Shown in pieces: positions 38,811 to 47,641 of a DNA stretch of 64,000 nucleotides (the first letter of the stretch is position 1; the number at the start of each line of letters is the position of its first letter). The stretch is from Clostridia bacterium (GTDB lineage: Bacteria > Bacillota > Clostridia > Christensenellales > CAG-917). The notes below the pieces were generated by a model that was given only the letters and a program-made list of their open reading frames with translations, made no database searches and was not told the DNA's origin. Location of the stretch: assembly GCA_017618055.1 (NCBI GenBank), contig JAFZVB010000004.1, forward strand, positions 92,601-156,600, given 5' to 3'. Made by a program: the position numbers and the translations under genes.

Positions 38811-38828
38811 ATGATAAATGGAGGAGTT

Positions 38829-39083
38829 ATGGAAGATATAAATGACCTTTTCAAGTCTCTATTAAATAACAATACCGAAGGCGATGTTCTTGCAGATTTA
38901 GAAAGCGCCTTAAATAGTATGCTCAAGACTGAGAAGAAAGAAGAAAAGAAAAAGCAAAACGAAATAGAGCAGTTAAGTGAAGAGGTTAATGAAATTAAAA
39001 AAGAAGAAAATGTAGATGAACTTCCTCCAGAAATAGATCCAGTTGCAATGGTTCTAAAGAGCATCAAAGATATGTCTAAATAA
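38829..39083 (+). CDS. Small acidic coiled-coil hypothetical protein (84 aa)
   Basis: I do not recognise the family. The start at 38829 has GGAGGAG immediately upstream, while the in-frame ATG at 38811 would lie at the transcription start. The protein has an acidic N-terminal helix (MEDINDLFKSLL), a highly charged Lys/Glu middle (about 33-60) that should form a coiled coil, and a short conserved-looking PPEIDPVAMVLKSI end. No signal peptide or membrane helix is present. It has its own promoter and terminator, so it is a single-gene unit next to, but divergent from, the tmk operon. Confidence 0.65.
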   Translation: MEDINDLFKSLLNNNTEGDVLADLESALNSMLKTEKKEEKKKQNEIEQLSEEVNEIKKEENVDELPPEIDPVAMVLKSIKDMSK

Positions 39084-39186: not shown

Positions 39187-39384
39187 AAGAGTGTAGTCAA
39201 TGCGAGTGGTGTGTGAGCTAGCCGTTTGCCCGTCCCTTTCGTAGGTTGGTTTATACACTGCTCCATCGCACAACAAAAAGCGTGTTACATTTTGTGTTGC
39301 TTCATTAACATGATTTGTTTTCATAGTTATAGTTACCTCCTTTGTGAAAGAGATAGGATTTGCTCGGTCCTATCTTTTTCTTTT
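39187..39384 (+). ncRNA. Unexplained structured region, possible small RNA
   Basis: About 200 bases without a credible gene. TGCGA at about 39200-39204 can pair with TCGCA near 39265-39269, and the adjacent GTGGTGT with ACACTGC, which gives a long imperfect stem; CTAGCC and GGTTGG can extend it. A perfect terminator lies at its 3' end: AGATAGGA (39351-39358) and TCCTATCT (39368-39375) then TTTTCTTTT. A weak promoter candidate is TTGGAA (39163-39168) with TATAAG (39184-39189). The local base composition is richer in G and C than the flanks. It does not resemble 6S, SRP, tmRNA or RNase P RNA. A minus-strand ORF crosses it but runs into the upstream terminator. Confidence 0.35.
39351..39384 (+). 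terminator. Strong terminator upstream of the aro promoter
   Basis: Eight-base perfect stem AGATAGGA / TCCTATCT around a nine-base loop, followed by TTTTCTTTT. There is no plausible plus-strand gene just upstream of it, which is the main reason to suspect a non-coding transcript. Confidence 0.85.
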
Positions 39385-39397
39385 ATTAAGAAAAATG

Positions 39398-39426
39398 TTG
39401 ACTAAATAAAATACGAATAATAAAAT
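39398..39426 (+). promoter_or_regulatory. Promoter of the aro operon
   Basis: TTGACT (39398-39403) and TAAAAT (39421-39426), spacer 17, just before the leader peptide. The same boxes and spacer occur upstream of leuS. Confidence 0.8.
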
Positions 39427-39447
39427 GTTAATCACTAGGAGATAGTA

Positions 39448-39531
39448 ATGATGTTAGTTAATAAGGTTTACTACTACGGATATTTTTACGGCTACTTCTT
39501 TACGAAGCTATTTTCCGGTGCAGTAAAATAA
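39448..39531 (+). CDS. Tyr/Phe-rich leader peptide of the aro operon (27 aa)
   Basis: A 27-codon ORF with AGGAG (39437-39441) six bases before the ATG. Residues 8-18 read YYYGYFYGYFF, six Tyr and three Phe among eleven residues; a further Phe is at 22. It lies between a strong promoter and an intrinsic terminator, ahead of genes that make tyrosine and phenylalanine. This is the design of amino-acid leader peptides (PheL type): when charged tRNA-Tyr or tRNA-Phe is scarce the ribosome stalls in this run and transcription continues. A second in-frame ATG at 39451 could also start it. The sequence is direct; the regulation is inferred from the known mechanism. Confidence 0.88.
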   Translation: MMLVNKVYYYGYFYGYFFTKLFSGAVK

Positions 39532-39598
39532 TTGATATCATTATGAGAGTTAGATAGAAAGAATTAACCGCATCGGACAAATCCCGGTGCGATTTTTA
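39484..39598 (+). promoter_or_regulatory. Transcription attenuator of the aro operon
   Basis: Three alternative pairings are visible. Region 1 TTTTACGG (39484-39491, within the Tyr/Phe codons) can pair with region 2, using GTAAAA (39523-39528) and CC (39515-39516), with an inner CTTC/GAAG stem. Region 2 CCGGTGC (39515-39521) can instead pair with GCATCGG (39570-39576). The terminator is CGCATCGG (39569-39576) with CCGGTGCG (39584-39591) and then ATTTTTATT. Region 2 and the terminator's right arm share the same CCGGTGC, so the antiterminator and terminator exclude each other. Confidence 0.82.
39569..39598 (+). terminator. Attenuator terminator hairpin
   Basis: Eight-base stem with one wobble pair and a seven-base loop, then five T, 37 bases before the first aro structural gene. 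Confidence 0.85.
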
Positions 39599-39634: not shown

Positions 39635-40648
39635 ATGATTATCACAATTAAAAGAGATCAGGACAAAAAGCAACTTAACAATTTATTGTTATGGATCAAA
39701 GATTTAGGTCTTCAAGCAGACATTTCTGAAGGTGAACACAGTACAGTCGTTGGCTTAGTTGGAGACACTTCTAAGGTAGATATAGACCTAGTTAAATCTT
39801 TAGATATCGTTGAAAACGTTACAAGAATTTCCGAACCATATAAAAAGGCAAATAGAAAATTCCATCCACAAGATACCATTATTAATGTTGGTGGATATAA
39901 AATTGGCGGAAATCATTTCCAAATTATGGCTGGACCATGTTCTGTAGAAAGCGAAAAGCAAGTAACCGCAATTGCAAAGGCAGTTAGAGAATCTGGTGCA
40001 ACTATTTTAAGAGGTGGTGCTTTTAAGCCAAGAACATCTCCATATGCTTTCCAAGGATTAGGATTAGATGGTCTTAAAATTTTACTTAAAGTAAAAGAAG
40101 AGACAGGAATGCCTATTGTTACCGAATTAATGAACGAAAAATACCTAGACGAATTTGCAGATGTAGATATCATCCAAATTGGTGCTAGAAATATGCAAAA
40201 CTTTGACCTTCTTAAAGCAGTTGGAAAGATAAAGAAACCAGTTCTATTAAAGAGAGGACTTGCTGCAACTATGGAAGAATGGTTAATGAGTGCAGAATAT
40301 ATAATGGCAAACGGAAACAACAATGTTATTCTTTGTGAAAGAGGAATTAGAACATACGAGACTTATACAAGAAATACTTTAGACCTTTCTGCAATACCTC
40401 TTATGAAAGAAAAGACACACTTGCCAATCATAGTAGATCCAAGCCATGCATCTGGTATCTCTAGATTAGTAAGACCTATGTCCCTTGCAGCAGTTGGTGC
40501 AGGTGCAGATGGGTTGATTATTGAAGTACACAATGATCCACCACATGCTTTATGTGATGGCGCACAATCTTTAAGACCAGAGCAATTTGACGAAGTTGTA
40601 AAGGCAATAGACGTAATGCTTCCAGTAGTAAATAAAGTAAGAGGATAA
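39635..40648 (+). CDS. aroF: 3-deoxy-7-phosphoheptulonate synthase (DAHP synthase)
   Basis: First enzyme of the shikimate pathway; it joins phosphoenolpyruvate and erythrose-4-phosphate. The 337-residue protein is the type I-beta kind: an N-terminal ferredoxin/ACT-like regulatory domain (about 1-70, MIITIKRDQDKKQL onward) fused to the barrel with MAGPCSVES, RGGAFKPRTSPYAFQG, IGARNMQNFDLL and DPSHASG. That N-terminal domain binds Tyr or another end product in relatives, so activity may be feedback-controlled in addition to attenuation. It is the first structural gene after the leader. Confidence 0.95.
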   Translation: MIITIKRDQDKKQLNNLLLWIKDLGLQADISEGEHSTVVGLVGDTSKVDIDLVKSLDIVENVTRISEPYKKANRKFHPQDTIINVGGYKIGGNHFQIMAGPCSVESEKQVTAIAKAVRESGATILRGGAFKPRTSPYAFQGLGLDGLKILLKVKEETGMPIVTELMNEKYLDEFADVDIIQIGARNMQNFDLLKAVGKIKKPVLLKRGLAATMEEWLMSAEYIMANGNNNVILCERGIRTYETYTRNTLDLSAIPLMKEKTHLPIIVDPSHASGISRLVRPMSLAAVGAGADGLIIEVHNDPPHALCDGAQSLRPEQFDEVVKAIDVMLPVVNKVRG

Positions 40649-40649
40649 T

Positions 40650-41516
40650 ATGAAAATTTCTATCATAGGATTAGGACTTATAGGTGGTTCAATAGGTAGA
40701 GCTACTCTAGCAAAAACAGAACATACTGTTTATGGTTTTGATATTTCCGAATCCGTATTATTAAAAGCAGAATTAATGAATGCTATAACAGAAAGAGGAA
40801 CAGACAATTCTCTTGCTCAATCAGATGTTGTAATTATAGCGTTATCCCCAGAATTAACTATGGAAAAGATGGAAGAAATATGTCCTAAGTTAAAGAAGGG
40901 CACAATTATCATAGATACTTGTGGTATTAAGAGACAAGTAATAGATAAGATGAATGAATTGCTTGAAAAATACCCAGAATTACACTTTGCTGGAGTTCAT
41001 CCAATGGCAGGTAGAGAATTTAGTGGTATTGAACATTCAACGGTTGGATTATATGAACATGCTTTTATTATCGTTGTTCCTGTACACCCAGATATGAAAT
41101 CTTTAACAATCTTAAAAGATTATTTCTTAGAATTAGGTGCAGAGGGATTACAAATCTCTACAGCAGAAGAGCATGACAAGATTATTGCATACACATCTCA
41201 ACTTGCTCACGTTGTTTCTTCATCCTATGTAAAGAACCCACTTTCTAAAATATATGCAGGATATTCCGCAGGCAGTTTTAGAGATATGACAAGAGTTGCT
41301 AAATTAAATGCAGATCTTTGGACAGAATTATTCTTAGATAACAAAGATAATTTGGTTGTAGCCATAGAGGATTTGCAAAAACACTTAGAAGAATACAAAG
41401 AAGCAATTCAAAACAATGACGAAGAAAAGCTCCATTCTTTATTAGAAGAAGGAACTAAGATTAAAGCAGAAGCAGATGCATTGCTAGTTGCAAGGAGAAA
41501 AAATGGCCAAAAATAA
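40650..41516 (+). CDS. tyrA: Prephenate dehydrogenase (TyrA)
   Basis: TyrA oxidatively decarboxylates prephenate to 4-hydroxyphenylpyruvate on the tyrosine branch. The 288 residues include an N-terminal Rossmann loop GLGLIGGSIGRA (7-18), HPMAGREFSG (the substrate-binding segment) and the helical dimer domain with AYTSQLAHVVSSS. No chorismate mutase or ACT domain is attached; the mutase is fused to PheA in this operon. The gene starts one base after aroF. A C-terminal charged tail overlaps the ribosome site of aroB. Confidence 0.94.
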   Translation: MKISIIGLGLIGGSIGRATLAKTEHTVYGFDISESVLLKAELMNAITERGTDNSLAQSDVVIIALSPELTMEKMEEICPKLKKGTIIIDTCGIKRQVIDKMNELLEKYPELHFAGVHPMAGREFSGIEHSTVGLYEHAFIIVVPVHPDMKSLTILKDYFLELGAEGLQISTAEEHDKIIAYTSQLAHVVSSSYVKNPLSKIYAGYSAGSFRDMTRVAKLNADLWTELFLDNKDNLVVAIEDLQKHLEEYKEAIQNNDEEKLHSLLEEGTKIKAEADALLVARRKNGQK

Positions 41517-42531
41517 CGTTATTATTAAAAACGGAGTAAGATTTGAGGTTGCAAAATACTTAAAGAAAGTTGCTCCAAAATGCACAAAGGTAGTTATTAT
41601 CACAGATAACAATGTATTCATGCTCTATGAAGCAGACATATCTGCATCCCTTAAGAATGCAGGAATAAATGTTTGCACATTTGTAATGGAAGCAGGAGAA
41701 CAACACAAGAATATACAAACGTATGAAGCCATGATTAACTTTGTTGCAGATGCAAAACTAACAAGAGAAGATGTAATAATTGCTCTTGGTGGTGGTGTTG
41801 TTGGAGACCTCGCTGGATTCGTTGCTGCAACATATATGAGAGGCATAAAGGTTATCCAAATGCCAACAACTTTGCTTGCTTGCATAGATTCTTCAATAGG
41901 AGGAAAGACAGGTTTTGACCTCCCACAAGGCAAGAATTTAATAGGTGCTTTCCATCAACCAAGTGCTATTTTAATAGACCTTGAAACATTAAAAACATTG
42001 CCAAAAGAGGAGTTCCAAAACGGCTTAGGAGAGGGTATAAAATACGCTTTCTTAATTGGAAATGAAATGATTGAATTATTGAAGGAAGGCCTAGAAGATG
42101 GCAATCTATTAGACTTTGTAACACGCTGTGTAGACTATAAATTAGACATAGTTAACAAGGATGAAAAAGAGTCTGGATTAAGAAAATTATTAAACCTTGG
42201 ACACACCTTAGGACACGCAATTGAGAAGGAATCCAATTACACAATCCCACACGGACTTGCTGTAACAAAAGGAACTTTATGTGTCGCAAATGCATCAGTA
42301 AACTATGGCAAGTTGCAAAAACAAGCATATTTAGATGCAATTGAAATATGTAAAAAATATGACCTAGATTACACCATTTCTTATGATATCAAGAGCCTAA
42401 TAAAGAACATCCAAATGGATAAGAAAATGCATGCAGATGGAGATATCTCTTTTGTAGATATTGAAGACTTAGGCAAATGTGTAATAAGAACAGTTAGCAT
42501 AAAAGAATTAGAGGAGTACTTAACAAAATGA
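41503..42531 (+). CDS. aroB: 3-dehydroquinate synthase (AroB)
   Basis: AroB closes DAHP to 3-dehydroquinate, using NAD and a divalent metal. I prefer the ATG at 41503 with AAGGAG at 41492-41497; a TTG at 41488 would start inside that ribosome site. The 342-residue protein shows GGGVVGDLAGFVAATYMRG, the LLACIDSSIGGKTG NAD/substrate segment, and metal ligands in NLGHTLGHAIE and IPHGLAV. It overlaps tyrA by 14 bases and aroA by four. Confidence 0.95.
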   Translation: MAKNNVIIKNGVRFEVAKYLKKVAPKCTKVVIITDNNVFMLYEADISASLKNAGINVCTFVMEAGEQHKNIQTYEAMINFVADAKLTREDVIIALGGGVVGDLAGFVAATYMRGIKVIQMPTTLLACIDSSIGGKTGFDLPQGKNLIGAFHQPSAILIDLETLKTLPKEEFQNGLGEGIKYAFLIGNEMIELLKEGLEDGNLLDFVTRCVDYKLDIVNKDEKESGLRKLLNLGHTLGHAIEKESNYTIPHGLAVTKGTLCVANASVNYGKLQKQAYLDAIEICKKYDLDYTISYDIKSLIKNIQMDKKMHADGDISFVDIEDLGKCVIRTVSIKELEEYLTK

Positions 42532-43784
42532 TAGTAAAAGTTAGCAAGTCTAGAATATGTGGCAACGTTGTAATACCATCTTCAAAGTCTGAAATGCACA
42601 GAGCTTTAATCTGTGCTGCACTTGGAGATGCTGCTAAAACTATCTTAGGAGACTTGAGTGGAGATGATGTATTAGTAACCAAGAGATGTCTTGAGGCATT
42701 AGGTTCTAACATTACTATTAAGGACAACACTATTATTGTCACTCCAATAAACAGAAACATAAAAGAAGTAAGTATGAATGCAGAGTCTAGTGGTTCCACA
42801 TTAAGATTCATGCTTTGTATCTGTGCTATGCTTGGTATCACAGTTAATATGGATGGATCAGCAAGACTTAGAGAGAGACCTTTGGATGATTTAATAGATA
42901 CTCTTTCTAAAAACGGAATCACATTCTCTAGTACGAAACTTCCTTTCACAATGTCTGGCAAAGTAAATACAGACAAGATTGAAGTTAGTGCAAAGGTTAG
43001 TTCTCAATATGCAACAGGATTAATGCTTGGCGCTGTAGCACTAAAACAAACAACAATAATCTCTATTCTTGCAGGCATTGCTTCTAAGGATTATATCAAG
43101 CTCACAGCAAAAGTAATGGCAGATGCTGGAGTAAGAATAGAAAATAGAGGACAAACATACATTATATTCCCAGATAGGAAACCAGTTAGCTCTATAAAAG
43201 TTAGTGGAGACTGGTCTAGTGCGGCATTCTTTGCAGTATTAGGAGCACTAAATGGGAACATTAGTTTGCTTGGAGTAGATAAAACCTCTACACAAGGAGA
43301 CAAACAAATCATAAACATTATAAGAAGTGCTGGTGGAAACATAGAGTATAACAAGGGAGTTTATACATTAAGTGAATCCAAATTACACGGAATAACCTTT
43401 GATGCCAAAAACTACCCAGATTTAGTGCCAGTTGTATCCATTCTTCTTGCTAATGCAGAAGGTACTAGCACCATTACTAATGTAGATAGATTAAAAGTGA
43501 AGGAATCAGATAGATTAAGTGAAACCATTAAATTGTTATCACAATTTGGTATAAATAGTGAGACAGATGGTTCAACACTAACCATTTATGGTGGCAAATT
43601 GGTTGGAGGAAAGGAGATAGTTCTTCCAGATGATCACAGAATGGCTATGAGTGCAGCAGTGGCTGGGGTATGCTTGGATGAACCAACAACCTTAGTTAAT
43701 GCAGAATGTGTCTCTAAATCATATCCAAGATTCTTTGAGGATTTAAAGAGCATAGGAGGAAATGTAGATGTACTCAGCGTTTAA
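42528..43784 (+). CDS. aroA: 3-phosphoshikimate 1-carboxyvinyltransferase (EPSP synthase, AroA)
   Basis: AroA adds enolpyruvate to shikimate-3-phosphate. The 418 residues have the two-domain fold marks PSSKSEMHRALICAAL, ESSGSTLRFML, GSARLRERPLDDL, SSQYATGLMLGA and, near the end, DDHRMAMSAAVAG. All are in family order. AroA is the glyphosate target in general; the SGSTLRFM variant of the glycine loop places it away from the classical E. coli sequence (usual NAGTA-RPL), but I cannot judge sensitivity. It begins with a four-base overlap on aroB and itself overlaps aroC by 17 bases. Confidence 0.94.
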   Translation: MIVKVSKSRICGNVVIPSSKSEMHRALICAALGDAAKTILGDLSGDDVLVTKRCLEALGSNITIKDNTIIVTPINRNIKEVSMNAESSGSTLRFMLCICAMLGITVNMDGSARLRERPLDDLIDTLSKNGITFSSTKLPFTMSGKVNTDKIEVSAKVSSQYATGLMLGAVALKQTTIISILAGIASKDYIKLTAKVMADAGVRIENRGQTYIIFPDRKPVSSIKVSGDWSSAAFFAVLGALNGNISLLGVDKTSTQGDKQIINIIRSAGGNIEYNKGVYTLSESKLHGITFDAKNYPDLVPVVSILLANAEGTSTITNVDRLKVKESDRLSETIKLLSQFGINSETDGSTLTIYGGKLVGGKEIVLPDDHRMAMSAAVAGVCLDEPTTLVNAECVSKSYPRFFEDLKSIGGNVDVLSV

Positions 43785-44847
43785 TAATATTAAAGTAGAA
43801 ATATTTGGGGAATCTCATGCACCAGAAATAGGTGTAAGACTTTCTGGTATACCTAAGGGTATAAAGATAGATGAAGATAAGATCCAAATATTGGTTGATA
43901 GAAGAAAAGCATCTCAAAATCCTTGGTCCACAAGAAGAAACGAAGATGATAACGTTGAAATCTTATCTGGATTAGACAATGGTTATACGGATGGAAGCGA
44001 GATCTATGCAAGAATATTAAACACAGATATTCGTTCTAAGGATTATGAATCCATTAGAAACATTCCAAGACCATCTCATGCAGATTATAGTGCTCATCTT
44101 AAAAACAATTCACCAGTACCTATTCCTGGAAGTGGAAGGTATTCTGGACGTATGACAGCAGCATTATGTATTGCTGGAAGTATTGCAAAACAAATTCTAG
44201 AGCAAGAAGGAATTAGTATATATGCATATGTTTCCTCAATTGCAGGAATTAAAGCAAAAGGATACATAGATGGAGATATTTCAAAAGACAATTTAGAGAA
44301 AGCAAGATCATATTCTATATGTAATATAGAAAGCCAAGACAAGGCAGACATCTGGACAAAAGCAATCTTACTAGAAAAAGAAGATGGGAATAGTGTTGGT
44401 GGTATCGTAGAATGTGTTGTTCTCAATATGAAGAAAGGTGTTGGAGATGCACTCTTTGAAGGATTAGAGGGAAGAATAGCCCAATCTGTATATGCCATTC
44501 CGGCAGTAAAGGGTGTTGAGTTTGGTGCAGGTTTTGATATTGCAAACAAACTTGGTAGCGAAGCTAATGACCAATTCACAGTTAAAGATGGAGAAGTGTC
44601 ATTATTAAGCAATAATGCAGGTGGAATTAATGGTGGTATATCTAACGGAGCACCTATTCTTTTAAGAGCAGCTTTTAGACCAACACCAAGTATCTCCAAG
44701 ACACAACAATCTGTAAACATAGAAACAAAAGAAATAAAACAAATAAATATAGAGGGCAGACATGATGCTTGTATTGTTCCAAGAGCAGTACCAGTTGTAG
44801 AGTCTGCAGTAGCATTAGCAATATTAGATGCAATTTTGGACAAATAG
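43768..44847 (+). CDS. aroC: Chorismate synthase (AroC)
   Basis: AroC eliminates phosphate from EPSP to give chorismate, using reduced FMN. The 359 residues contain GESHAPEIGVRLSGIPKG near the start, RPSHADY, GGRYSGR-like GSGRYSGRMTA, and the C-terminal GRHDACIVPRAVPVVE, all typical signatures. The first bases overlap the aroA reading frame by 17, which is unusual but tolerable for a coupled start. No flavin reductase is in the operon, so reduced FMN must come from elsewhere, as for other monofunctional AroC. Confidence 0.95.
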   Translation: MYSAFNNIKVEIFGESHAPEIGVRLSGIPKGIKIDEDKIQILVDRRKASQNPWSTRRNEDDNVEILSGLDNGYTDGSEIYARILNTDIRSKDYESIRNIPRPSHADYSAHLKNNSPVPIPGSGRYSGRMTAALCIAGSIAKQILEQEGISIYAYVSSIAGIKAKGYIDGDISKDNLEKARSYSICNIESQDKADIWTKAILLEKEDGNSVGGIVECVVLNMKKGVGDALFEGLEGRIAQSVYAIPAVKGVEFGAGFDIANKLGSEANDQFTVKDGEVSLLSNNAGGINGGISNGAPILLRAAFRPTPSISKTQQSVNIETKEIKQINIEGRHDACIVPRAVPVVESAVALAILDAILDK

Positions 44848-44856
44848 GAGACAGCA

Positions 44857-45996
44857 ATGAAATTAGAAGACTTGAGAAACCAAATTGATGCAATTGATAA
44901 CCAAATAGCAGAGCTTTATGTTCAAAGAATGGACGTGGCTCGTGAAATCGGTGTTGTAAAAGAGATAGATAAGATTAATCTTCAAAATACAACACGTGAA
45001 AAGGAAATTATTAGTAGAGTTACTGCTGGTATGCCAGAAGAAATTAAGCTTTATGGAAAGCAAGTCTTCGAAACATTATTCAGTACTTCCAAGGCATACC
45101 AATCTAGATTATTAAGCATTAACTCAGACACTAAAAACCAAATAGAAAATGCTCTAAAAGATGGTACACCAGCATTCCCAATAGATGCTACAGTAGCTTG
45201 TCAAGGTGTTCCTGGAGCATATTCTCAGATAGCAGCAGATAGGATGATTGAGATACCAAATACTATGTTCTTTAAGGACTGGGAATCCGTATTTAATGCC
45301 GTTGAAAAAGGGCTTTGTAAGTATGGAGTACTACCTATTGAAAATAGTTCAGTTGGCTCAGTAAACGGGGTTTATGATCTCATTTCGTTACATAAATGCT
45401 TTATTGTGCGAAGTGCAAAGATTAGAATACAACATTTCTTCCTTGCTAAAAAGGGCACATGTTTAGAGGATATAAAAGAGATATTCTCACACGAACAAGC
45501 AATAGGACAATGCTCTAAATTCTTAAAGCAATTCGCTAATGCAAAGATAACAATAGTAAACAATACTGCTATTGCCGCAAAGTCTGTAATGGAATCAGAT
45601 AGAAATGATGTTGCCTGCGTTGCTTCTCATGAGTGTGCAGGAATATATGGATTAAATATCCTAGAACCAAACATCCAAGATAACGAAAATAACTACACAA
45701 GATTCATCGCTATTTCTAAGGATCTCAAAATCTATGATGGAGCAAACAAGATTAGTATCACTTGCAACCTCGCACATGAACCTGGTAGTTTAAATAAGAT
45801 GTTGAATAGTTTCTCAACATTAGGATTAAACTTAACAAAACTAGAGTCTAGACCAGTAGCAAATTCTTCATTTGAATTTAACTTCTACTTTGACTTTGAT
45901 GCAGATATAAAGAGACCTGAAGTGAAGAACCTTATTGCAGAGCTAGATAATAGTTGTGATAGATTTACATTCTTAGGAGCATATCAAGAAATATAA
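44857..45996 (+). CDS. pheA: Bifunctional chorismate mutase / prephenate dehydratase (PheA)
   Basis: This 379-residue fusion makes phenylpyruvate from chorismate. Residues 1-90 are a helical AroQ-type chorismate mutase (LRNQIDAIDNQIAELYVQRMDVAREI). Residues ~105-285 are prephenate dehydratase, with QGVPGAYSQIA, PIENSSVGSVNGVYDL and NYTRFIAI. The last ~90 residues are an ACT domain (EPGSLNKMLNSF, LNLTKLESRP), the usual site for phenylalanine feedback. It supplies the mutase that TyrA also needs. Its stop overlaps the next start in TAATG. Confidence 0.95.
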   Translation: MKLEDLRNQIDAIDNQIAELYVQRMDVAREIGVVKEIDKINLQNTTREKEIISRVTAGMPEEIKLYGKQVFETLFSTSKAYQSRLLSINSDTKNQIENALKDGTPAFPIDATVACQGVPGAYSQIAADRMIEIPNTMFFKDWESVFNAVEKGLCKYGVLPIENSSVGSVNGVYDLISLHKCFIVRSAKIRIQHFFLAKKGTCLEDIKEIFSHEQAIGQCSKFLKQFANAKITIVNNTAIAAKSVMESDRNDVACVASHECAGIYGLNILEPNIQDNENNYTRFIAISKDLKIYDGANKISITCNLAHEPGSLNKMLNSFSTLGLNLTKLESRPVANSSFEFNFYFDFDADIKRPEVKNLIAELDNSCDRFTFLGAYQEI

Positions 45997-47216
45997 TGGC
46001 TGATAAAAAGTTTTGCGTAATAGGGCAATCATTGCCACACACTTTCTCTCCAGAGATACATTCTTTCTTTGGGCTAGATTATCGTATTGAAGAATTAAGG
46101 AATGTTGAGGCTTTGGAGAATTTCTTAAGGACCACAAATTATGATGGTTTCAATGTAACTATCCCTTATAAAAGGGATATAATCCCACTTTTAAATCATG
46201 TTTCCAAAGAAGCATTAGAGATGGGGGCAGTTAATACTGTTGTTAGAAAAGATGGAGAGTGGTATGGATACAACACAGACATTTATGGTATAAAATATGC
46301 ACTTAAGCAAGCAGGAATAGAAGTTAAAGGAAAGAAGGTTGCAATACTTGGAAGTGGTGGTACATCTCATATGGCAAGTTATGCTCTAAAAGATGAAGCC
46401 AGAGAAGTAATTGTTGTTAGCAGAATTGGAGAAATTAATTACAATAATATCTATGATATTAAAGACATAGATGTAATTATAAATGCAACTCCAGTTGGAA
46501 TGTATCCAAACAATGAACCAACACCAATAGATCTAGAGAAGATGCCTTCTGTTAAGGGTGTGTTTGATGCCATTTATAATCCACTTAGAACAACATTATT
46601 GCTCAAGGCTGAAGAATTAGGCATTGCCAGAGCTAACGGCCTTGGTATGCTTGTAGAACAAGCAAGAGTGGCAAGAGATATATTTACTGGCGAAGAATCA
46701 GATGAGAGTTTATCAGATAGAGTTCTAAACGAATTATACAAGAGAAAGAGAAACATAGTATTCATTGGTATGCCAGGATCTGGAAAAACTACCTTTGGTA
46801 GAGCTATTGCAAAAGAGCTTGGAAAAGAGTTTGTAGATACAGATGATGAGATAGTAAAGAGAGAGGGCATGAGTATCCCAAAGATCTTTGAAGAGAAAGG
46901 TGAAGAGTACTTTAGACAACTTGAAATTAATGTTATTGCAGAAGTGTCTGCAAAGTTTAACCAAGTTATATCCACAGGTGGAGGAGTTCCTCTAAATGTA
47001 GACAATAGAAGAAATATAAGACATAATGGATTTGTTATCTTTGTAGATAGACCTGTTGAAACGTTAGAAACAGATGGAAGGCCTTTATCTCTATCTATGG
47101 ACTTAAGAGTTATGTTTGATAGACGTATGCCAATCTATCTAAAATCCAAAGATGCACAGATATTCTGTGATGGCAATATAGAAAGAACATTAGAAAGAAT
47201 TAGGAGTGTATTATGA
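45996..47216 (+). CDS. Shikimate dehydrogenase - shikimate kinase fusion (AroE-AroK)
   Basis: A 406-residue fusion of two consecutive shikimate-pathway activities. Residues 1-~235 are AroE: SLPHTFSPEIHSFF (usual S-SPxxHN), NVTIPYKR with the catalytic Lys, GAVNTVV, the GSGGTSHMA nucleotide loop and GLGMLVEQA. Residues ~250-406 are shikimate kinase, with the P-loop GMPGSGKT (258-265), FVDTDDEI and STGGGVPL. The join is a short charged linker. Separate aroE and aroK genes are the rule, so the fusion is a neat local feature; it would pass shikimate from one site to the next. It overlaps aroQ by four bases. Confidence 0.94.
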   Translation: MADKKFCVIGQSLPHTFSPEIHSFFGLDYRIEELRNVEALENFLRTTNYDGFNVTIPYKRDIIPLLNHVSKEALEMGAVNTVVRKDGEWYGYNTDIYGIKYALKQAGIEVKGKKVAILGSGGTSHMASYALKDEAREVIVVSRIGEINYNNIYDIKDIDVIINATPVGMYPNNEPTPIDLEKMPSVKGVFDAIYNPLRTTLLLKAEELGIARANGLGMLVEQARVARDIFTGEESDESLSDRVLNELYKRKRNIVFIGMPGSGKTTFGRAIAKELGKEFVDTDDEIVKREGMSIPKIFEEKGEEYFRQLEINVIAEVSAKFNQVISTGGGVPLNVDNRRNIRHNGFVIFVDRPVETLETDGRPLSLSMDLRVMFDRRMPIYLKSKDAQIFCDGNIERTLERIRSVL

Positions 47217-47641
47217 AGAAGATACTTGTAATTAATGGCGTTAACCTCAACATGTTAGGAATTCGTGAAAAAGAAATATATGGTAACCAATCATACCAAG
47301 ATTTAATGTTTTACATTAAAACAGAGTCTAGCAGAATGGGATTGGATGTAACATGTGTACAATCTAACTATGAAGGCAAGATAGTTGAATACATCCAAGA
47401 AGCATATCAAAAGTATGAAGGTATCATTATTAATGCAGGTGCATATACGCATACATCCATAGCTATTTTAGATGCATTAAAAGCTGTTCAAATTCCAACA
47501 GTTGAAGTACATCTTTCAGACATAAACAATAGAGATGAGTTTAGAAAATTTTCATATATTGGACTTTATGCAGAAAAACAAATCGTTGGCAAAGGGTTTG
47601 CAGGATACAAAGAAGCTTTAGAATATTTAAAAAATAAATAA
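47213..47641 (+). CDS. aroQ: Type II 3-dehydroquinate dehydratase (AroQ)
   Basis: AroQ removes water from 3-dehydroquinate to give dehydroshikimate. The 142-residue protein carries INGVNLNMLGIRE (family INGPNLNLLGxRE, here Val for Pro), INAGAYTHTSIAILDAL, and EVHLSDINNRDEFR, which keeps the catalytic His and the Arg seven residues later. Length is normal. It is the last gene of the aro operon; an AT-only inverted repeat spans its stop codon. Confidence 0.95.
   Translation: MKKILVINGVNLNMLGIREKEIYGNQSYQDLMFYIKTESSRMGLDVTCVQSNYEGKIVEYIQEAYQKYEGIIINAGAYTHTSIAILDALKAVQIPTVEVHLSDINNRDEFRKFSYIGLYAEKQIVGKGFAGYKEALEYLKNK

Follow-up and report, generated by a model that had tools for sequence, protein, structure and literature searches.

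How is a complete set of aromatic pathway genes governed when a short reading frame crowded with tyrosine and phenylalanine codons, and then a transcription terminator, stand between its promoter and its first gene? The question is raised by the aroF operon of the window, i.e., the whole 64-kb stretch of DNA analysed here. Our answer, to which we give a probability of about 0.92, is that the element is a ribosome-mediated transcription attenuator sensing charged tRNA-Tyr and tRNA-Phe. An earlier note on this DNA had proposed such attenuation from three parts: the peptide run YYYGYFYGYFF, a terminator with a T-run and a CCGGTGC segment able to pair with the left arm of the terminator. All three are present in the sequence, and the reading is supported by the comparison with relatives (leader, terminator, swapped-arm and folding results), from which we infer translation of the leader, ribosome stalling and read-through of the terminator in vivo.

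Parts of the leader region and of the operon

The leader region contains a promoter, a ribosome-binding site, a leader reading frame with its control codons and three pairing regions, the last of which runs into a T-rich tail (Table 1). Two adjacent ATGs stand at the start of the leader, the first at 39448, and either may serve as the start codon. The leader is the sole stop-free stretch in the six frames of the window where 11 residues include at least nine Tyr/Phe; shuffling the window 20 times produced none, so the run is not due to chance. The leader start also has a 23-bp match at another place in the genome (L002), but as this falls within the coding sequence of an ABC transporter ATPase, we rejected it as a second leader. 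Directly upstream of the attenuator promoter, a terminator-like hairpin with a T-tail (39346-39380) perhaps ends transcription of a small forward-strand ORF (38811-39083).

Table 1. Coordinates of the attenuator parts and of the operon genes in the window
Feature	Position	Strand	Basis
Promoter of leader transcript, TTGACT-17 nt-TAAAAT	39398..39426	+	10/12 consensus matches
Shine-Dalgarno AGGAGA for leader ORF	39437..39442	+	Sequence
Leader peptide ORF, 27 aa, MMLVNKVYYYGYFYGYFFTKLFSGAVK	39448..39531	+	Tyr/Phe richness conserved among aroF upstream regions
Control codons YYYGYFYGYFF (6 Tyr, 3 Phe, 2 Gly)	39469..39501	+	
Region 2, CCGGTGC, antiterminator left arm, within leader ORF	39515..39521	+	Duplex with region 3
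Region 3, CGCATCGG, shared arm, partner of region 2 or region 4	39569..39576	+	Terminator and swapped-arm folding
Region 4, CCGGTGCG, terminator right arm	39584..39591	+	Hairpin call
Terminator hairpin, CGCATCGG-ACAAATC-CCGGTGCG	39569..39591 (tail to 39597)	+	8 bp, -12.0 kcal/mol
Intrinsic terminator tail, ATTTTT	39592..39597	+	Sequence
aroF, DAHP synthase with ferredoxin-like regulatory domain	39635..40648	+	NCBIfam NF006421, Pfam PF00793 + PF18152
tyrA, prephenate dehydrogenase	40650..41516	+	Best match NF006307, below equivalog cut-off
aroB, 3-dehydroquinate synthase	41488..42531	+	TIGR01357 above cut-off
aroA, EPSP synthase	42528..43784	+	TIGR01356 above cut-off
aroC, chorismate synthase	43768..44847	+	TIGR00033 above cut-off
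pheA, chorismate mutase-prephenate dehydratase	44857..45996	+	PF01817 + PF00800
aroE-aroK fusion, shikimate dehydrogenase + shikimate kinase	45996..47216	+	PF08501 + PF01202; TIGR00507 below cut-off
aroQ, type II dehydroquinase, last gene of the operon	47213..47641	+	TIGR01088 above cut-off

The eight genes of the operon overlap their neighbours or lie at most nine bases from them, and the forward strand of the operon interior holds no further good terminator, only a single weak 5-bp hit at 46174. The family matches of tyrA, pheA and aroE/K are partly below equivalog cut-offs, yet they are the best ones, and Pfam agrees for pheA and aroE/K. The listed start of aroB is a TTG, with an in-frame ATG a few codons downstream.

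Conservation and alternative pairing in relatives

The source genome of the window (1.58 Mb, 28 contigs) is that of a gut bacterium and has uncultured Clostridia MAGs as its near relatives. Our sample comprised 126 stretches upstream of aroF (genus, family and order, plus ten loci from a named genome collection), in which leaders were defined as frames of 8–60 codons with at least six Tyr/Phe in 12. Such a leader is found in 97 of the 126, nearly all from the same order; the reverse complements of these stretches yield 12, and shuffles 1.6 on average. At seven Tyr/Phe in 12, the figures are 82 leaders vs. 2 on the reverse complement. In 56 dereplicated leaders, Tyr accounts for 235 codons, Phe for 231 and Trp for 5, in keeping with the products of the operon in genomes that lack TrpE-type enzymes; these counts are partly circular, as leaders were chosen by Tyr/Phe richness. 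A promoter scoring at least 9/12 lies upstream of 93 of the 97 leaders, while a hairpin resembling a terminator follows all 97, reaching -9 kcal/mol or better in 99% of cases vs. 5% of shuffled stretches.

The peptides themselves (13 to 41 aa) vary in sequence and length beyond the genus, so that MKKNIIANAFYYFYFYGFNKS, MRQAFVYYYYYFTFTKTV and MNKNYAYYYFAYFFVNHI are dissimilar leaders occupying the equivalent position before aroF. This variation bears on the possibility that the reading frame encodes a functional small protein, for instance a membrane protein, with the terminator acting as a constitutive down-tuner. Aromatic-rich peptides can be membrane-active, and the peptide is nearly identical in two of the three congeners; beyond the genus, however, only the density of Tyr/Phe, the distance from the run to region 2 and the complementarity of regions 2 and 3 are conserved, which makes a small-protein function very improbable.

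Among the 29 upstream regions without a leader by our definition, four have aroQ directly upstream, aroF not being the first gene, and one lies at a contig end. Weaker Tyr/Phe frames, below the threshold, can be seen by eye at L101, L176, L186, L200 and L204. Genomes of the Caccalectryoclostridium type (L019, L020 and L153) are without a leader, the first two also lacking tyrA after aroF, and the related genome that contains L153 (G046) encodes a chorismate-binding enzyme. No comparable leader precedes pheS or hisG in the family, apart from one weak TTG-start hit upstream of pheS in G019; in the window's genome, hisG lies inside an operon and is thus a poor test. Separately, six loci of Deltaproteobacterial MAGs (L024, L028, L031, L034, L035 and L039) carry Phe-rich leaders (e.g., GRFFFFCFFR) about 220-230 nt upstream of aroF, which probably represent a separate Phe attenuator.

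Alternative pairing was studied by a swap test, in which the stretch following the control codons was paired with either its own or a swapped terminator left arm plus loop (56 dereplicated leaders). The median duplex energy is -13.8 kcal/mol with the own arm vs. -9.4 with swapped arms, and the own arm is the stronger partner in 52 of the 56 leaders (Wilcoxon p=2.7e-10); for the window, the duplex of regions 2 and 3 reaches -14.1 kcal/mol (rank 0.036 vs. swapped arms). Region 2 begins at a median of 17 nt (IQR 14-20) past the last control codon, and at 9-15 nt in most of the better cases, i.e., about where the edge of a ribosome would sit on stalling within the run. Within the genera g8, g3 and g47, respectively, 99, 86 and 99% of the cells of the 3:4 stem are paired, with 1, 6 and 1 two-sided compensatory pairs; in the 2:3 stem, pairing extends to 100, 91 and 83% of cells, and such pairs number 1, 1 and 0. 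Covariation in relatives, through which the earlier note had proposed to check its reading, is therefore observed as own-versus-swapped 2:3 pairing and as changes in the 3:4 stem, but two-sided changes within genera are sparse in the 2:3 stem. The Tyr/Phe codons and the alternative pairing, on whose conservation the earlier note had staked that reading, are both conserved across the order despite unrelated nucleotides.

These results also speak to a second alternative, namely that the ribosome exerts its control mainly via translation or Rho rather than via an intrinsic terminator. Leader peptides without clear terminators have been reported in Actinobacteria (PMC1262725). Here, however, a hairpin with a U-run follows the leader in practically all relatives, far above the shuffled background, and the left arm of the terminator is the very segment that covaries with region 2; we regard control mainly by translation or Rho as scarcely probable.

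Ribosome position and the predicted switch

For an intrinsic attenuator, the order of events would be as follows. RNA polymerase would start at about 39433, with a ribosome trailing it through the 27 codons of the leader. Scarcity of either Tyr-tRNA or Phe-tRNA would stall the ribosome at codons 8-18 (YYYGYFYGYFF), with its leading edge halted just before region 2 (CCGGTGC), which could pair with GCATCGG of region 3 once the latter is made; region 4 would then remain single-stranded, no terminator would form and the complete aroF-tyrA-aroBAC-pheA-aroEK-aroQ operon would be transcribed. If both tRNAs were charged, the ribosome would reach the stop codon and mask region 2, regions 3 and 4 would pair, and transcription would end in the U-run.

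Co-transcriptional folding, in which the RNA was cut immediately before region 4 and a ribosome was placed codon by codon with an assumed footprint of 13 nt from the A-site codon, fits this order of events. In the window and both congeners, the probability of 2:3 pairing is 1.00 with the A site anywhere in the run or one codon beyond (region 4 not yet being made); one codon further it drops to 0.48, 0.50 and 0.21, respectively, and thereafter to 0. In a set of 55 leaders, region 3 is engaged upstream at 0.72 with the ribosome at the control codons and at 0.33 once it has reached the stop codon (p=9e-11), although only 20 of the 55 switch fully during transcription, with less than 0.25 remaining when the ribosome is at the stop codon. 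At equilibrium, with the ribosome modelled as a mask, a clear switch appears in only 36 of 97 leaders. In the window, once region 4 is included, the probability of 3:4 pairing is 0.62 with the ribosome at the run's final Phe codon and 0.76-0.99 at the earlier control codons. Since equilibrium favours the terminator even with a stalled ribosome, switching must be kinetic, and the mechanism is best read as one in which a stalled ribosome would let the 2:3 pairing form first. The folding likewise suggests that ribosome-free RNA would also terminate. When the window RNA is folded to minimum energy without translation, a 12-bp stem joins the start and stop regions of the leader (39449-39460 with 39529-39540); this candidate protector hairpin would bury the leader start codons.

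Among sensors that dispense with a ribosome, a T-box, in which the leader RNA itself would bind uncharged tRNA-Tyr or tRNA-Phe without the need for a peptide, is the obvious candidate. The earlier note had named T-boxes as the better-known Gram-positive solution, and they do precede aroF in more distant Bacillota (above the gathering score and at most 840 nt upstream at ten loci: L023, L026, L030, L036, L040-L044 and L047), while the window's genome has two T-boxes elsewhere. Yet the window and the vicinity of the leader yield no match to RF00230, either at the gathering score or at E-values up to 5, and what the relatives have in common is a Tyr/Phe-rich reading frame and no RNA fold; a T-box is thus largely refuted for the window leader, and is the least probable of the three alternatives weighed here. 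TRAP-type control would call for a tight series of about 11 (G/U)AG triplets; the leader region has nine, scattered across 202 nt as two small clusters and without a regular array, and a profile search finds no trpE-type gene in the genome. More generally, an Rfam search at the leader returned no matching element and no leader family above threshold.

The missing tryptophan branch, leader types and known systems

The earlier note had judged the coupling of all common-pathway genes with tyrA and pheA unusual. That coupling is present, and its unusual character has a simple reason, namely that TrpE-type enzymes are missing. Of the 43 family genomes, 42 lack the N domain of TrpE/PabB (PF04715); at the level of the order, 363 of 395 genomes, the window's included, have no PF00425 (TrpE, PabB, MenF and kin), whereas all 14 control genomes of the search were positive. 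Known enzymes thus provide no way from chorismate to tryptophan, PABA or isochorismate, and Tyr and Phe, as the only products of chorismate, can alone govern the common pathway. Genomes with chorismate-binding enzymes have leaders somewhat less often: such an enzyme occurs in 4 of 86 leader-bearing genomes vs. 5 of the 27 leader-lacking ones (Fisher p=0.03 before any correction, with genomes that are not independent and only part of which the PF00425 search covered). Upstream of a TrpB-like gene (TIGR01415), the window's genome carries one of its two T-boxes (L141:1438-1678, i.e., G000:C1:321937-322177; 86 bits, below the gathering score of 93, E=2e-19), the specifier position of which aligns with UGG. 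Such an arrangement is expected if tryptophan is made from scavenged indole, and in a genome without TrpE it probably corresponds to Trp-controlled indole salvage, the indole route being itself conjectural. The second T-box (L114:1501-1736, i.e., G000:C25:125950-126185) precedes a sodium:solute symporter gene related to PutP.

No aroF T-box was found at the scanned leader-lacking loci of the order. A simple reading is that T-box and peptide attenuator were exchanged near the origin of the order; the direction of the change would follow from the spread of T-boxes in Bacillota.

The leaders also differ in how they begin. For 93 of them, we measured how far the nearest in-frame ATG lies behind the last base of the -10 hexamer, and the distribution is two-peaked: 28 leaders lie at exactly 6 nt, seven at 7-9 nt and none at 10-12 nt, while the remaining ones lie 13-61 nt past the -10, mostly with a Shine-Dalgarno-like motif, except two at 1-2 nt that are probably wrong promoter picks. 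After dereplication, 15 of 54 leaders are still at exactly 6 nt. The 6-9 nt class (35 of 93 leaders; f1.g3, f1.g4, f21.g47, f5.g50 and others) is devoid of Shine-Dalgarno motifs and includes L008, L014, L060, L086, L089-L091, L093, L094, L097-L099, L104, L106, L109, L123-L129, L131, L138, L149 and L192-L194, among others; the genus of the window falls in the Shine-Dalgarno class. Transcription usually begins about 7 nt after the -10 box, and with a spacing of 6 nt the first transcript base would therefore be at or beside the AUG. Judging from this spacing, the class probably consists of leaderless leader peptides.

Taken together, we lean towards a broader reading, held with clearly less confidence than the attenuator itself: Tyr/Phe attenuators would be found throughout the order (Clostridia, most likely Christensenellales), would replace the aroF T-box in the absence of a Trp branch, and would be leaderless in several genera, with the AUG as first codon and an initiation unlike the textbook one, Shine-Dalgarno and leaderless forms alternating between related genera. 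In the leaderless genera, the spacing between polymerase and ribosome perhaps also differs from textbook attenuation.

Leader-peptide attenuation is sparsely reported in Bacillota, where T-boxes dominate, but here it is the standard aromatic amino acid device across many families. In an order of mostly uncultured bacteria, one regulatory logic has been rebuilt repeatedly with unrelated nucleotides, and its codon choice receives a metabolic reason (Tyr and Phe as sole products, without a Trp branch), while pairs of Shine-Dalgarno and leaderless leaders offer a natural test of the effect of initiation on transcription-translation coupling. The family behind the window attenuator is unusually wide and well supported. 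Ribosome-mediated attenuation itself is already known; the more novel parts are the leaderless class and the alternation of T-box and peptide, and the novelty is provisional, a Tyr/Phe attenuator for this order not being found in the full text of the open-licence literature.

In the proteobacterial pheA and pheST systems, a short leader peptide with runs of end-product codons is followed by a terminator and a mutually exclusive antiterminator. The window leader likewise has control codons, a terminator and an exclusive antiterminator, but the leaders described here mix Tyr and Phe equally, belong to Clostridia, control the whole common pathway with both branches and correspond to no Rfam leader family above threshold. 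The pheST attenuators are mentioned in a survey of Actinobacteria that reports no RNA element before the Phe or Tyr operons of that group (PMC1262725). Outside Proteobacteria, the uORFC-13-1 motif resembles the window in having a uORF and an apparent terminator upstream of aroF, and attenuation has been proposed for it; its 24 examples come only from Acholeplasma and unassigned environmental sequences (PMC8632094). Compared by description only, its uORF has at least one Phe codon and no mention of Tyr, whereas the window leader uses both. In Firmicutes, the His-leader attenuators sit where other Firmicutes have T-boxes; they concern histidine genes in few lineages, with no Tyr/Phe or aro cases in the parts of these sources that we consulted (PMC2965389, PMC9413887). 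For the leaderless leaders of the window's relatives, a precedent exists in trpL of Sinorhizobium meliloti, the transcript of which starts at the AUG of the leader peptide (PMC7298713), albeit for Trp and in an alphaproteobacterium, and unlike the window leader, which has a Shine-Dalgarno motif. Finally, the T-box leaders of aroF in distant Bacillota share with the window the gene, the position and the tRNA-charging signal, but sense that signal by RNA only, without a peptide.
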